Assembly (NCBI GenBank): GCA_018335675.1
Contig: JAGXRQ010000019.1
Location: 1-64,000 of the forward strand
Direction of reading: 5' to 3'
Length of the DNA: 64,000 bases
Source of the DNA: Bacteroidota bacterium
GTDB lineage: Bacteria; Bacteroidota; Bacteroidia; Bacteroidales; UBA7960
This document shows positions 2,827-61,659 of the stretch, in pieces. The notes under the pieces were generated by a model. It was not told the origin of the DNA and searched no databases. It worked only from the letters and a program-made list of their open reading frames with translations. Both the position numbers and the translations under genes were made by a program. Every line of letters starts with the position of its first letter. Position 1 is the first letter of the stretch.

Positions 2827-2955
2827 GTGTTTGTTCTAAAAATATTAATCCTTAATCAATAACATTCAACACCCAAAGTTTTATCAATTTTTATAACCAT
2901 TTGGTTTACAATATCTCAAAAAATACATCTAAATTTGCGCAAATACGCTTGCAAA

Positions 2956-3351
2956 ATGAAGAAGTATCTGTGTTGCTTAATTTTTCTTTACTGGGTTATA
3001 AGCATTCCAACTCATGGTGTTGTTAATGAAAATCATGTTGAACCCATTATTACGGTTTCCGAATCGATAATTGACTTCGGGATTGCAAATCAAGGCGAAA
3101 ATCTTTCCAGACAAATTAAAGTTACAAACACCGGAACCAGAGCTCTCAAAATCTCAAACGTAAGAGGAAGCTGCGGCTTAGCGGTTGTCTCCTTCCCACG
3201 TCAGGAAATTAAACCCGGCGAATCCGGCGTCATACATTTCAGATACGACTCTTCAAGAATTGGCGATTTCGAAAGAATTTTAACGATACACTCAAATAGC
3301 GCTGAAAATACTGTAAAAATTAAAGTTAAAGGAAGGGTAGTTAATAAATAA
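2956..3351 (+). CDS. DUF1573 domain-containing protein
   Basis: VSESIIDFGIANQGENLSRQIKVTNTGTRALKISNVRGSCG...IKPGESGVIHFRYDSSRIGDF is DUF1573-like; ATG at 2956 gives a signal peptide (the ORF track starts earlier at TTG). Confidence 0.8.
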   Translation: MKKYLCCLIFLYWVISIPTHGVVNENHVEPIITVSESIIDFGIANQGENLSRQIKVTNTGTRALKISNVRGSCGLAVVSFPRQEIKPGESGVIHFRYDSSRIGDFERILTIHSNSAENTVKIKVKGRVVNK

Positions 3352-3352
3352 G

Positions 3353-3429
3353 GGTGTTAGGTGTTAGGTGTTAGGTGTTAGGTGTTAGGTGTTAGGTGTT
3401 AGGTGTCAAGTATCAGGTATCAGGTGTCA
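3353..3429 (+). repeat. Tandem heptamer array (GGTGTTA)7 plus GGTGTCA/GGTATCA variants
   Basis: Seven contiguous perfect GGTGTTA units at 3353-3401, then GGTGTCA, AGTATCA, GGTATCA, GGTGTCA. Confidence 0.95.
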
Positions 3430-3445
3430 GGATTTCAAGATTCAG

Positions 3446-3520
3446 AAACCCGAAACCCGAAACCCGAAACCCGAAACCCGAAACCCGAAACCCGAAACCC
3501 GAAACCCAAAACCCAAAACC
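3446..3520 (-). repeat. Tandem heptamer array (AAACCCG)8 (AAACCCA)2, i.e. GGGTTT(C/T) units on the minus strand
   Basis: Eight contiguous AAACCCG units then two AAACCCA; opposite polarity to the adjacent GGTGTTA array. Confidence 0.95.
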
Positions 3521-3528
3521 TATTACCT

Positions 3529-4998
3529 ATGAAAAGATATGCCACAATCATCATTTTACTGATTATTATTATTGTTCAGATTTTTATACTAAGGTTGTTT
3601 TTTAGTTTTGAGAAGAAGAGATGTGTTTTGCCTGAAAGGTTTTTGTATGAAATTACAGAAAATGATTACGACGCATTGGCATATAAGAACAGAAGAGATA
3701 GGCTGTATGATGTTGTTTCTGATGGTGTAATTATTATTTCTGCGAAGGCAGGTAATGATTTTAAATATATTACTGGTTTTGATGAGAGGGTAGGAACAGC
3801 AATATTGCAACCTAAAAGCGAAACTCCATTCACACTGTTTGTTGAACCTTATAATCTTTTTGCTGCACAATGGACAGGCGAGTTATATGGCATCGAAGGT
3901 GCAATAGAAAAGTTTGGTGCTGATAAGGCTTTTGATATTGCAACCTTGTTGGAGGAGATTCCCGGAATATTGAAAACTACAAATAAGTTGTTCTTACATT
4001 CTAATGATAAAGAACTTAAATCGGAAGTTGAAAAGCTTATTAAATCATCAAAAAGAAAAATTGAAGTTCTTGATATTGACGCAATTATACATGAAATGCG
4101 AGTAGTAAAAGATGAATGGGAAATTGCGCAAATTCGACAGGCTGTTAATGTTACGGCACTTGCACATAAAAGGGTTTGGGAAACTGTTATGACAGGGCAA
4201 AAAGAATATGAAGTGCAAGCCGAAATAGAATATGTTTACAGAAAGAATGGACTAAAAGTTGGTTTCTATTCTATTATTGGTTCAGGACCTAATGCTACTG
4301 TGTTGCATCATTATAAAAACAACAGAGAAATTATACAGGGAGATCTTCTGCTTGTTGATATTGGAGCCGCTAGTAAAGTAGGATATAACACTGACATAAC
4401 GCGAACAATTCCTGTTAGTGGTAAGTTTTCCAAAGAGCAGAAAATAATTTATGAATTGGTCTTGAAGGCATTCGATGAAGGTGTTAAGGAATTTATGCCA
4501 GGTAATAAAGTCCTCGACCCAAGCCATAAAGCCATTAATGTGCTAGTAAATGGATTGTACGATCTGGGCTTAATAACAGACACAACTCAATGGTGGCAAA
4601 AAAGATTCTATATTCAGCATCGAACTAGTCATTATATAGGCCTTAATGTTCATGATGTTGGACTTTATGGAGATTTCGACATAAACAACCGCGATGAGCA
4701 TATTCTTAGTCCTGAATTCCAAGGTAGGGAACTTCTTCCCGGAATGGTTTTATCTATGGAGCCAGGATTGTATTTTATGGAAAACAAGCTCGACCATCTT
4801 AAAGATCTTTTCGGACACTTAGCCACTGAAGAAGAACTTAATGATTTTGCCCAGAAAGTAAGACCAATATACGAGAAATACCAAGGAATAGGAGTGAGGA
4901 TTGAAGATGTAATACTTGTAACCCAAGATGGGCATGAAAATCTTTCCGGCCATTTACCTAAGAAAGTTTATGAGATAGAGAATTGGTTGAAGGATTAG
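3529..4998 (+). CDS. M24-family aminopeptidase (Xaa-Pro aminopeptidase-like), membrane-anchored/exported
   Basis: M24 motifs HHYKNNREIIQGDLLLVDIGAASKVGYNTDITRTIPVSGKF, HRTSHYIGLNVHDVG, GMVLSMEPGLY, GVRIEDVILVT. The true start is probably ATG 3529; the ORF-track N-terminus (NPKPETRNPKPET) is translated repeat. Confidence 0.88.
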   Translation: MKRYATIIILLIIIIVQIFILRLFFSFEKKRCVLPERFLYEITENDYDALAYKNRRDRLYDVVSDGVIIISAKAGNDFKYITGFDERVGTAILQPKSETPFTLFVEPYNLFAAQWTGELYGIEGAIEKFGADKAFDIATLLEEIPGILKTTNKLFLHSNDKELKSEVEKLIKSSKRKIEVLDIDAIIHEMRVVKDEWEIAQIRQAVNVTALAHKRVWETVMTGQKEYEVQAEIEYVYRKNGLKVGFYSIIGSGPNATVLHHYKNNREIIQGDLLLVDIGAASKVGYNTDITRTIPVSGKFSKEQKIIYELVLKAFDEGVKEFMPGNKVLDPSHKAINVLVNGLYDLGLITDTTQWWQKRFYIQHRTSHYIGLNVHDVGLYGDFDINNRDEHILSPEFQGRELLPGMVLSMEPGLYFMENKLDHLKDLFGHLATEEELNDFAQKVRPIYEKYQGIGVRIEDVILVTQDGHENLSGHLPKKVYEIENWLKD

Positions 4999-5003
4999 AT
5001 TTG

Positions 5004-5103
5004 GGGGTGTTAGGTGTCAGGTATCAGGTATCGGGTATCGGGTATCGGGTATCGGGAATTGGGTGTCGGTGTTGGGTGTCGGTGTTGGGTATCGGATGTC
5101 AGG
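5004..5103 (+). repeat. Tandem heptamer array GGTGTTA/GGTGTCA/GGTATCA/(GGTATCG)4 and degenerate units
   Basis: gggtgttaggtgtcaggtatcaggtatcgggtatcgggtatcgggtatcgggaattgggtgtcggtgttggg...; 7-nt period. Confidence 0.92.
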
Positions 5104-5493
5104 TTAGGATTTTGGGTGTATTTTTGGTTGTTTGGCAATCCGACTTGTTCTTATATTGATTAGCCTCGTTAACATAGAACAGATATCATCACATTCTTTT
5201 TCAATGGTTTTTAATTCATTTTTTGTAATATATTTAATTTCTTCGGCAATTAATGTTTGAGTTAAGAGTTCAGAAGCTGAACCTCTGGCTATATAGAAAT
5301 GTCTGATTGATTGTTGATTGCTTCCTAGTTGATCTCCTTCAGCAATATTGCTTGGAATACTTACTGCAGCACGCCTCATTTGGTCAATTAGTCCGAAATC
5401 TTTTGAAATACTACCTTTGCTAGTTAACGAGTATATGGCAACAGCAAGGTCTTTTGATTTTCGCCACACATTTAATTTTTTAAATTCCCCCAT
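5104..5493 (-). CDS. Four-helix bundle protein (23S rRNA intervening-sequence protein family, S23/TIGR02436-like)
   Basis: MGEFKKLNVWRKSKDLAVAIYSLT...LIDQMRRAAVSIPSNIAEGDQLGSNQQSIRHFYIARGSASELLTQTLIAEEIKYI matches the family core (QxRRAAxSIPSNIAEG, F..IA.GSxxEL.TQ). Confidence 0.92.
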   Translation of the reverse strand: MGEFKKLNVWRKSKDLAVAIYSLTSKGSISKDFGLIDQMRRAAVSIPSNIAEGDQLGSNQQSIRHFYIARGSASELLTQTLIAEEIKYITKNELKTIEKECDDICSMLTRLINIRTSRIAKQPKIHPKS

Positions 5494-5567
5494 AAATCTA
5501 TCTAATATTCTGCAAAATATAAAAATAACACACTAAATAACAATAATATTAATTAAAACAAAAAATT

Positions 5568-5628
5568 TCAACACCCAACACCCAACACCTAATACCTGAC
5601 ACCTAATACCTGACACCTAATACCTAAC
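5568..5628 (-). repeat. Tandem heptamer array, C-rich on plus strand (GGTATTA/GGTGTCA/GGTGTTG on minus strand)
   Basis: caacacccaacacccaacacctaatacctgacacctaatacctgacacctaatacctaac; 7-nt period, opposite polarity to 5004-5103. Confidence 0.92.
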
Positions 5629-5706
5629 AATTAAAATAAATTAGGTTTTAAATATTTTTTTTTTGAATTTTGCGACATCTTTTATAAAAACATAAAACCT
5701 ATAAAC

Positions 5707-6906
5707 ATGCCAAAAATATCTGAAAAAGGGCTTATGATGCCCGAGTCACCAATTAGGAAACTTGTTCCCTTTGCAGAAGCAGCTAAGAAAAGAGGAGTTA
5801 AAGTGTATCATCTAAACATTGGACAACCCGACATCCCAACTCCGCAAAGTATGATTGATGCAATGCGAAATCTTAATACAAAGGTTATTGAATACAGCCA
5901 TTCTGCCGGTATTCTTTCATATCGTGAAAAGCTTTGTAAATATTATGAAAAGCATAATATTAAGATTACTCCTGACGACATCATTATTGGTGCCGGTGCC
6001 TCAGAAGCTATCTTATTTGCAGTGCAAACATGTTTAAATCCTGATGATGAGATTATTATCCCTGAGCCATTTTATGCAAATTATAATGGATTTGCTACAA
6101 GTGCAGGAGTGAAAGTTAAACCAATTATTTCTTCTATCGACGATGGGTTTGCGCTTCCTCCTATTGCTGAGTTTGAAAAGGCAATTACTCCTAAAACCAA
6201 GGCTATTATGGTTTGTAATCCTAACAATCCTACCGGTTATCTTTATTCAAAGGAGGAGCTTGAAGTTTTGAGAGAAATTGTTAAGAAATACGATTTGTTC
6301 TTGTTTGCCGATGAGGTTTATAGAGAATTTTGTTATGATGGAACTACCCATTTTTCAGTAATGAATCTTGAAGGTCTGGAAGAAAATGTGGTTTTATTTG
6401 ATTCTGTTTCAAAAAGATACAGTGCATGCGGTATAAGAATAGGAGCAATGATTTCTCGCAATAAGGAGGTTATGAAAACAGCAATGAAATTTGCTCAGGC
6501 AAGATTAAGTCCGCCTTCTCTCGGGCAAATAGCCGCCGAAGCTGCTGTTGAAACCCCTGATTCATACTTCACAGAGGTTATTGAAGAGTACCGCGCGAGA
6601 AGAGACACTGTTGTAAATGGTCTGAATAAAATCCCGGGTGTATTTTGCCCAAACCCAAAAGGAGCATTTTATGTAACTACAAAACTTCCAATCGACAATT
6701 GCGATAAATTCTGCCAATGGCTTTTGGAAGATTTTAATTTTGAAAATCAAACTGTTATGTTAGCTCCTGCAACAGGGTTCTATTCTACTCCCGGTGCCGG
6801 CAAAAACGAGGTAAGAATATCGTATGTTTTGAATGTTGATGATCTTAAAAAATCAATAATTTGCCTTGAAGAAGCATTGAAGGTTTATCCTGGACGCACA
6901 AGATAA
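5707..6906 (+). CDS. Pyridoxal phosphate-dependent aminotransferase (aspartate aminotransferase fold)
   Basis: HLNIGQPDIPTP, CNPNNPTGYLYS, FADEVYREF, SVSKRYSACGIRIG motifs. Confidence 0.92.
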   Translation: MPKISEKGLMMPESPIRKLVPFAEAAKKRGVKVYHLNIGQPDIPTPQSMIDAMRNLNTKVIEYSHSAGILSYREKLCKYYEKHNIKITPDDIIIGAGASEAILFAVQTCLNPDDEIIIPEPFYANYNGFATSAGVKVKPIISSIDDGFALPPIAEFEKAITPKTKAIMVCNPNNPTGYLYSKEELEVLREIVKKYDLFLFADEVYREFCYDGTTHFSVMNLEGLEENVVLFDSVSKRYSACGIRIGAMISRNKEVMKTAMKFAQARLSPPSLGQIAAEAAVETPDSYFTEVIEEYRARRDTVVNGLNKIPGVFCPNPKGAFYVTTKLPIDNCDKFCQWLLEDFNFENQTVMLAPATGFYSTPGAGKNEVRISYVLNVDDLKKSIICLEEALKVYPGRTR

Positions 6907-6916
6907 TTCACCCCCC

Positions 6917-7044
6917 GTAGAGACGCCATGCTTGGCGTCTCTATTTATTTATAACCGGCGTCTCTATTAAATTCCCACCGACGTTTCAATTAATTAAAAT
7001 AATATATGAAATTCAAACAGAGACGCGAGGCATCGCGTCTCTAC
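6917..7044. repeat. Pair of GTAGAGACGC...GCGTCTCTAC palindromic repeats
   Basis: TAGAGACGCC-atgctt-GGCGTCTCTA (6918-6943) and AGAGACGCGA-ggca-TCGCGTCTCT (7019-7042) are perfect 10-bp stems; an extra half-site GGCGTCTCTA lies at 6957-6966. Confidence 0.9.
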
Positions 7045-52153: not shown

Positions 52154-52160
52154 GGTTTTA

Positions 52161-52219
52161 AGTCCTGAGTCCTGAGTCCCAAGTCCCAAGTCCTGAGTCC
52201 TGAGTCCTAAGTCCTGAGT
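52161..52219 (-). repeat. Heptamer array (GGACTCA/GGACTTA/GGACTTG on minus strand)
   Basis: agtcctgagtcctgagtcccaagtcccaagtcctgagtcctgagtcctaagtcctgag. Confidence 0.95.
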
Positions 52220-52261
52220 TTTGTTTATAATGTATATTTGTGTCTTCAGCAAAGTTACAAA

Positions 52262-52330
52262 GAATTTCAATCTCCACAATCAGAACAATCCATACAATCT
52301 TGACAATCTTGACAATCTTGGCAATCTCAT
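52262..52330. repeat. Degenerate CAATC(N)5 short repeats
   Basis: caatctccacaatcagaacaatccatacaatcttgacaatcttgacaatcttggcaatctc; the same style recurs near 56470-56515 and 59718-59805. Confidence 0.8.
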
Positions 52331-52369
52331 CGATTCCCTAGAAGGGGGAACTGCAAAAATTTATACTCG

Positions 52370-52443
52370 ACTCAGGACTTAGGACTCAGGACTCAGGACT
52401 TGGGACTTAGGACTTAGGACTCAGGACTTGGGACTCAGGACTT
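52370..52443 (+). repeat. Heptamer array GGACTCA/GGACTTA/GGACTTG, inverted copy of 52161-52219
   Basis: actcaggacttaggactcaggactcaggacttgggacttaggacttaggactcaggacttgggactcaggactt. Confidence 0.95.
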
Positions 52444-59523: not shown

Positions 59524-59633
59524 TAATTGGAACACGGATAACGCGGATTTAATGGATTTTCACTGATTATTGCATCAGTTTCCTCTGCGGTTTTTGCGAA
59601 ATCCTTTGCGTGGAATTTTTTTAAACCACAAAG
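59524..59633 (+). repeat. Dispersed repeat copy 4 (long form)
   Basis: aattggaacacggataacgcggatttaatggattttcactgattattgcatcagtttcctctgcggtttttgcgaaatcctttgcgtggaatttttttaaaccacaaagacc. Confidence 0.88.
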
Positions 59634-59816
59634 ACCACTAAGAATGCACAAAGCACACAAAGAAAAACTTAGTGCCCTTTGTGAAAACCTTTGTGAACTT
59701 AGTGGTTAAAAAACAAATATCATTCTTCACAATCCTGTCAATCGTTCATCCACTGGATATCTCGCTAACGCTCGATATGACGGTTTCCCAATCCATACAA
59801 TCTTTTTCACCCCCCA

Positions 59817-60044: not shown

Positions 60045-61574
60045 ATGCATGAGATGATATTAATTTTAGATTTCGGCTCTCAATATACTCAATTGATTGC
60101 CAGACGTGTAAGGGAACTCAACGTGTATTGTGAGATACATCCTTACCATTATAAACCTTCGAACTTCGACAATATTAAAGGTGTTATTCTTTCGGGTAGC
60201 CCTTTTAGTACCAGAGAAAAAGACTCTCCAAGACCTGATCTTTCGGGCATTGTTGGGAAAATTCCTTTGCTTGGTGTATGCTATGGTGCTCAGCTACTTG
60301 CGCTTGAAAATGGTGGCGATGTTGAAGCTTCTGCTACTAGAGAATACGGTAGGGCAAACCTTTGTTTTGTCGATTCAAAGGAAGATCTTCTTGTCGGAGT
60401 TTCTCAAAACTCTCAGGTATGGATGTCGCACGGCGATACTATTACAAAGTTGCCCGCTTCTTACAAAAAGATTGCAAGCACCGCCGATGTCGATATTGCT
60501 GCTTTTCGCGCTAATGGAGATAATGTTTATGGATTGCAATTTCATCCGGAAGTGTACCATTCTACAGACGGTTTTATTTTATTGAGAAATTTTATTGTCG
60601 ATATCTGTGGTTGCGAACAAAGCTGGACTCCTGAATCATTTATTGAAAGCACCGTTGAAAATCTTAAGCAAAAGATCGGAAATGATAAGGTTGTTTTAGG
60701 TTTGTCGGGTGGCGTCGATTCAAGTGTAGCGGCTGTTTTGTTGCATAAAGCTATTGGAACTCAACTGCATTGTATTTTTGTGGATAATGGCTTGTTGAGA
60801 AAAAATGAATTTGAATCTGTACTGGATTCTTATCTGCATATGGGATTGAATGTAAAAGGAGTGAGGGCTGCAGATAATTTTTATAACGCTTTAAAAGGTT
60901 TGACAGACCCCGAGCTGAAAAGAAAAGCTATAGGGAAAGCTTTTATAGAGGTGTTCGATGAAGAAGCTCATAAAATTCAGGATGTTGTTTGGCTTGCTCA
61001 AGGAACTATTTATCCTGATGTTATTGAGTCTGTTTCTGTTAAAGGCCCCTCTGCTACTATCAAATCTCATCATAATGTTGGCGGATTGCCTGATTTTATG
61101 AAGCTTAAAATAGTTGAACCTCTAAGTAGTTTATTCAAAGACGAGGTTAGAAGGGTAGGAAGTGCTCTGCATATTAGCGATCACTTGCTAAAGCGTCATC
61201 CATTTCCCGGTCCAGGACTAGGAATTAGAATTCTGGGAGATATTACTCCTGATAAAGTTAGAATTCTTCAGGACGTGGATGATATTTTTATAAAAGGATT
61301 GCGTGATAGTGGCTTGTATGATAAGGTTTGGCAAGCTGCTGCAATATTGTTGCCGGTGCAGTCAGTCGGTGTTATGGGCGATGAAAGAACATACGAAAAT
61401 GCAGTATGCTTAAGAGCTGTGACCTCAACCGATGGAATGACAGCAGATTGGTCGCATTTGCCATACGAATTTTTGGCAAAAGTTTCAAATGATATAATAA
61501 ATAAGGTAAAAGGCGTTAATAGAGTAGTATATGATATAAGTTCTAAACCGCCGGCAACGATAGAGTGGGAGTAG
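60045..61574 (+). CDS. guaA: GMP synthase (glutamine-hydrolysing)
   Basis: [78 protein letters not shown]; the alternative start is ATG 60054. Confidence 0.97.
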
Positions 61575-61659
61575 GTGTCAGGTGTCAGGTGTCAGGTATA
61601 AGGTATAAGGTATAAGGTAAGATTCTTCCCGATACCTGATACCTGATACCCGATACCCA
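61574..61659. repeat. Inverted pair of heptamer arrays: (GGTGTCA)3(GGTATAA)3 then CGATACC/TGATACC units
   Basis: ggtgtcaggtgtcaggtgtcaggtataaggtataaggtataaggtaagattcttcccgatacctgatacctgatacccgataccc. Confidence 0.95.

Follow-up and report, generated by a model that had tools for sequence, protein, structure and literature searches.

The locus lies between an M24 peptidase gene and an aminotransferase gene in the window, by which we mean the whole stretch of 64,000 nucleotides that was analysed, and comprises a small gene enclosed by two heptamer arrays (Table 1). In profile searches the encoded protein matched PF05635 (E 1e-34; 119 bits against a cut-off of 33.8) and TIGR02436 (117 bits against a cut-off of 24). 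Read in the orientation of the gene, the left array is the downstream, C-rich arm and the right array the upstream, G-rich arm; the former begins about 6 bp past the M24 peptidase stop codon.

Table 1. Features of the locus and gene-less hairpins elsewhere in the window.
Feature	Position	Strand	Details
Left array	5006..5103	+	+ strand G-rich: GGTGTTA/GGTGTCA/GGTATCA/GGTATCG, RGT+N4 code
Four-helix-bundle gene (23S rRNA IVS protein, PF05635/TIGR02436)	5104..5493	-	129 aa; in hairpin loop
Spacer, start codon to right array	5494..5568	no strand	75 bp, AT-rich
Right array	5569..5629	+	+ strand C-rich: AACACCT/GACACCT/AATACCT
Gene-less inverted array pair	3353..3530 (arms 3353/3445)		RGT+N4 code (GGTGTTA ... 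GAAACCC); directly past DUF1573 stop codon
Gene-less inverted array pair	52160..52443 (arms 52160/52369)		AGTCCTG ... GACTTAG; 150-bp loop
Gene-less hairpin, other code	59626..59710 (end approximate)		CCACAAAG/CACTAAG; type that brackets GxxExxY genes
Gene-less inverted array pair	61573..61658 (arms 61573/61628)		AGGTGTC ... CCCGATA; 8-bp loop

The initial annotation, made from the letters alone, had described a gene set between two unrelated genes and bracketed by arrays of inverted polarity, one reaching its stop codon and the other starting about 75 bp upstream of its ATG; this description held throughout. The arrays at 5006–5063 and 5569–5627 gave lag-7 scores of 38.5 and 27, against a maximum of 11.5 over 20 dinucleotide shuffles of the whole window, and both were also detected by TRF. 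Positions 5008–5066 and 5571–5629 form an ungapped inverted pairing of 59 nt with a score of 26.5, whereas the top score among 2,000 dinucleotide-shuffled flank pairs was 15.0. In the minimum free energy (MFE) fold of the RNA, 92% of the upstream arm pairs with the other arm, leaving the S23p open reading frame in the loop. The shuffles, together with the three nulls described below, rule out a chance origin of the arms. The annotation had also reported no rRNA nearby, and a search with Rfam found no match within the window; the IVS gene here is thus not inside a 23S rRNA.

The neighbourhood has been rearranged. In relatives the gene order is M24 peptidase–DUF1573–aminotransferase, and in the window (2935–5707) it is DUF1573–arrays–M24–array/IVS gene/array–aminotransferase; the M24 gene is therefore relocated with respect to relatives, with arrays on both of its sides. 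Its longest open reading frame begins at a GTG within heptamer arrays (window 3403–3543), and the true start is probably an ATG just past the arrays, at about 3530. At the orthologous aminotransferase locus of 29 genomes from the same family rank, the IVS gene was upstream in none; because gene order is rearranged there, these relatives do not offer a clean empty site.

Known since the 1990s, the four-helix-bundle, or S23p, family still lacks an assigned function. The AlphaFold model of the window protein (pLDDT 96) is all-helical and aligns with 2gsc and 2rld at TM scores of 0.74–0.90; these two lead the fold ranking, followed by Avd in ribonucleoproteins of diversity-generating retroelements (DGRs). 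Avd is the partner of a reverse transcriptase. The relationship to Avd that the initial annotation had raised stands for the fold (TM about 0.77 to 8ub8) and not for the sequence, with an identity of just 11% and a score of 16.9 bits on the Avd profile NF033474 against a cut-off of 80, which rules out an Avd identity. No domain other than PF05635 was found in the window protein, nor was an HUH tyrosine transposase; with PF05635 as sole domain and an all-helical fold, the protein is not a RAYT either. The 2gsc protein has been reported to be a toroidal pentamer.

Turning to the rest of this genome, 11 matches to the family were found, and its members sit between complementary short arrays whose unit differs at each locus (GGTGTCA, GTATTGG, GTTTAATC, AAGTCCTG, GGGTATA, AATGTGCC, AAGATTTGT and others). 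Since each locus has its own unit, flanks were scored by local complementarity: the IR score is the best local complementarity between the 300 nt on each side. With flanks cut at the domain edge, nine of the ten full copies had an IR of at least 19.5 and the tenth had 14.5. Arms at two loci (C18 and C98) are visible when flanks start at the domain edge and hidden when they start at the longest open reading frame, because array sequence is then counted as coding. The threshold of IR at least 16 was picked after the data from this genome, and all later sets were scored with it unchanged, against three nulls: mispaired flanks of different loci, direct orientation, and other (control) genes. The loci that the searches yielded are the better-scoring copies, and the genomes are partly draft.

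Across 47 genomes of the same family rank, 52/64 loci reached the threshold, compared with 2.5% of mispaired flanks and 5/64 in direct orientation. A phylum sample restricted to best-scoring copies gave a weaker result, 11/30 (mispaired, 1.6%), with period-7 arms discernible by eye in most loci; arms are faint or undetected at some family members. In a GTDB set of about 15 phyla, complementary flanks were present in 53/80 members (29/45 outside Bacteroidota and 24/35 within), against 0.8% of mispaired flanks, 12/80 in direct orientation and 6/211 control genes at the same loci (odds ratio 67, p 6e-31). The initial annotation had made its proposal depend on such an enrichment of flanking ~7-nt inverted arrays over background genes, and the enrichment is there. 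Inverted, locus-specific complementarity is thus general for the family across phyla. Plain direct flanking repeats are rare, and the control genes rule out an effect common to any small gene; two of the six that pass resemble GxxExxY genes. Paired arms also occur at 5/7 plasmid-borne loci. Among the family genes encountered, one is flanked by cas10 and cmr3 in the type III-B CRISPR module of a Picosynechococcus plasmid (L340, 1186–1542), and another, on a Nostoc plasmid, has a ribonucleotide reductase gene on either side (L337, 1186–1554). Two Desulfobacterota proteins (L161, L171) are 57% identical to the window protein, compared with 25–40% for paralogues in its own genome, which points to horizontal transfer as judged from these identities.

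The arms share a code and not a sequence. Their period is 7 in 73/111 and 8 in 29/111, and the unit consensus opens with (A/G)GT and leaves the next four positions free (R.93, G.78, T.66); unit sequence varies by locus, and this RGT+N4 code alone is common to all. Read inward the arms are C-poor: 61/63 and 51/53 have more G than C. When trained on Bacteroidota arms, a model scored 0.264 on held-out arms from other phyla against 0.176 (SD 0.035) for a column-permuted version, a modest difference of about 2.5 SD. At both ends of 112/116 loci the G-rich strand reads inward in the 5'→3' direction, and both arms share a locus-specific unit. Such polarity is what would be seen if repeats had been added, as at telomeres, to both 3' ends of a break upon insertion, by a reverse transcriptase or polymerase that the Avd-like protein had brought in, one templated event setting both the polarity and the shared unit; the fold held in common with Avd, as a reverse transcriptase partner, is in keeping with this. 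Slippage and gene conversion between arms would give an equal picture, however, and units drift over time at orthologous sites, so that we give this explanation very little credence.

A second, unrelated family is bracketed likewise. Genes of the GxxExxY family (TIGR04256), which we take to be related to PD-(D/E)XK nucleases, have paired flanks at 18/33 loci against 3.2% of mispaired flanks; the direct-orientation control (12/33) is not clean here, because large direct repeats dominate a few loci. The arm motif of these genes is C[AG]CNNAG, found at 74 per kb and at 0.4 per kb in IVS arms. CACAGAG arrays occur in 20/58 genomes with GxxExxY versus 1/60 without, and 20/21 array-bearing genomes have the gene.

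Hairpins of both codes also occur without a gene (Table 1). An unbiased sample of arrays, drawn from 413 kb of sampled stretches of this genome, contained four inverted array pairs with members up to 1.5 kb apart, all within the window: one encloses the IVS gene, three are gene-less and none surrounds another gene. The unit type of the pair at 52160..52443 matches that of the arms around a further IVS gene in this genome (C22, L016). Of the heptamer arrays in the sample, 20/22 match RGTN4, and five successive RGTN4 units gave 502 overlapping matches in the genome versus 33 with the reversed pattern. Further dispersed intergenic repeats were seen (window 6934–6993 and L017/L018), comprising GGCGTCTCTATT and CTCCCCCTTTAGGGGG hairpins and blocks with GAGATCTCTC and CATCTCGACCGAAGTGAAGCG.

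Genomes that have the gene tend to be rich in arrays. Among 197 Bacteroidota genomes, those with the gene have a median of 19 RGTN4 arrays and those lacking it a median of 0 (Spearman 0.50), and the odds ratio for five or more arrays is 11 (p 2e-10); ancestry is only partly corrected in these cross-genome correlations. The same difference holds in one genus with both gene-bearing and gene-free genomes (p = 0.0025) and is weaker across the 47 genomes of the family set (Spearman 0.34, p 0.018; medians 38 versus 10). Exceptions run both ways: some genomes are array-rich yet lack the gene (e.g. G139), and others have genes without RGTN4 arrays (e.g. G076). Gene and arrays are nevertheless not distributed independently, contrary to the random association that the initial annotation had named as the outcome against it.

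Occupied and empty sites were sought in relatives, and both were found. At the L247 site, among sister species 91–95% identical, one has the gene with its arms and three have a short array of 40 bp; of two further species, one has a gene-less hairpin and the sixth a different family gene with different arms. At the L260 site, one species has the gene and arms, three have a gene-less hairpin of AATTAAG/AATTC type, and a more distant one has nothing. The gene is replaced at three more sites. In L246 as compared with L242/L244 the gene is swapped within similar outer arms, and in L261/L263 as compared with L256 the gene and new arms stand beside an old arm that the other species' allele still pairs. 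Occupied, gene-less, empty and gene-replaced alleles in related species support treating gene and arrays as a unit. No target-site duplication, insertion footprint or fixed element end could be defined at the two sites searched, because arrays occupy the entire space between the neighbouring stop and start codons, and no transposition was observed. In an orthologue set from another genus, arms drift between species; L105 and L252 pair best with their own partner and others do not, which is only suggestive of concerted change at orthologous sites. A gene-less heptamer hairpin downstream of the gene in L257–L259, the arms of which differ by species yet stay paired, is a candidate place to measure concerted evolution.

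Some of these alleles would also be expected of a passive coincidence, in which slippage and hairpin-templated copying generate arrays wherever intergenic space is loose, with the gene merely tolerated or captured there: arrays occur without genes, whole intergenic regions have been replaced by arrays, and a gene has been exchanged inside similar outer arms. But control genes, apart from the two GxxExxY-like cases and four others, are unbracketed, and coincidence does not predict the separate codes of two families. We therefore consider it improbable. That gene and arrays form the architecture described here, and that they are partners, we hold with high confidence.

The intergenic loci can be compared with the IVSs of 23S rRNA. 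On an Azospirillum plasmid (L343) the gene lies inside a 23S rRNA (RF02541, 2139 bits) and has two-armed arrays like those of intergenic loci; this 23S rRNA with its IVS is missing from the plasmid's gene table. The 23S rRNA IVSs of Coxiella and Leptospira carry an S23p open reading frame of the same protein family within a loop closed by a stem of complementary ends, and the Coxiella IVS has tandem heptamers (GACAGAT) just before the open reading frame, in a number that varies among strains (PMC4990558). The Azospirillum arms and the Coxiella heptamers suggest that rRNA IVSs and intergenic genes are one kind of element. The window element differs in lying between protein genes, with ten full copies per genome, in having arms that are tandem arrays throughout, and in the existence of gene-less copies. 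According to PMC4990558, the S23 protein is unlikely to be produced in Coxiella; there, at least, the hairpin would persist without it.

RNA folding pairs the arms at 110/116 loci, which places the gene in the loop, and the median distances from arm to domain end are 73 and 47 nt. These features would suit a non-mobile RNA device, the transcript folding with the gene in its loop, RNase III cutting the stem and the protein binding its own arms, in control of its own expression or of neighbouring mRNAs. The stems of rRNA IVSs are RNase III sites (PMC4990558), and Avd, with its fold in common, belongs to an RNA–protein complex. Such a device leaves unexplained, however, the gene-less hairpins and the hundreds of arrays of like code elsewhere in the genome, the correlation between gene and arrays, and the gene replacement at one site; we consider it unlikely. 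An insert in rRNA survives because RNase III removes it.

Two published systems resemble the elements described here. REPINs and their RAYTs (PMC3116915) likewise involve short inverted repeat pairs that form hairpins and are tied to a protein gene, with gene-less copies scattered between genes and a repeat flavour that varies by protein type; the differences are a four-helix bundle in place of an HUH tyrosine transposase, variable tandem arrays in place of a fixed palindrome, and several gene copies per genome. The GGGAATC/GGGGATT heptamers of Xanthomonas and Nostoc (186 and 183 arrays per Xanthomonas genome, with 70–75 convergent inverted pairs) were published as unexplained quadruplex formers, without a link to the four-helix-bundle protein (PMC4692102). 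They too are G-rich heptamers; the 2gsc protein is one of Xanthomonas campestris, and a gene of the family is present on Nostoc plasmids. We found no account of the gene–repeat partnership in the open-licence literature: the Coxiella IVS heptamers and the Xanthomonas convergent heptamers were published separately.

Taken together, the best reading, and in our judgement a reasonably probable one, is a hairpin element of the IVS type, with a mode of action like that of REPIN/RAYT, which here resides between protein genes. Gene and two arrays would constitute one element, a long imperfect hairpin with the coding sequence of a pentamer-forming protein in its loop. The ring-shaped protein would make one contact per heptad, at the RGT of each repeat unit, on the hairpin as RNA or single-stranded DNA; a TRAP-like model, with one NAG triplet per subunit, was considered, but the consensus found is RGT. 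We infer that the protein recognises the array, which we regard as likely. Contact would help the hairpin to be maintained and copied to other intergenic sites, both for the protein's own copy and, in trans, for gene-less hairpins, in the way proposed for RAYTs acting on REPINs. More tentatively, we infer that the protein might promote spread. The protein is not known to have a catalytic motif or site; thus, we propose that the ring recognises the repeat and leaves the copying to enzymes of the host or of other origin. Any activity that cuts or copies DNA would have to be supplied from outside the element, by the host or by another element.

Possibly, these loci represent an overlooked class of element, a suggestion we make with some hesitation: a small gene in the loop of a short-tandem-array hairpin, with gene-less derivatives served in trans, in which at least two unrelated families (the pentameric four-helix bundle and GxxExxY) would each write or maintain their own code. 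The rRNA IVS would be the special case that landed in rRNA, and a large part of the intergenic repeats of heptamer and CACAGAG type that lack an explanation in bacteria could belong to this class. A common origin is thereby offered for the heptamers of rRNA IVSs and the convergent heptamer arrays of Xanthomonas and Nostoc, and a REPIN-like partnership based on non-transposase proteins is suggested. A family without a function now has a recognisable DNA partner whose code is simple, which makes it possible to design tests of binding, deletion and mobilisation.
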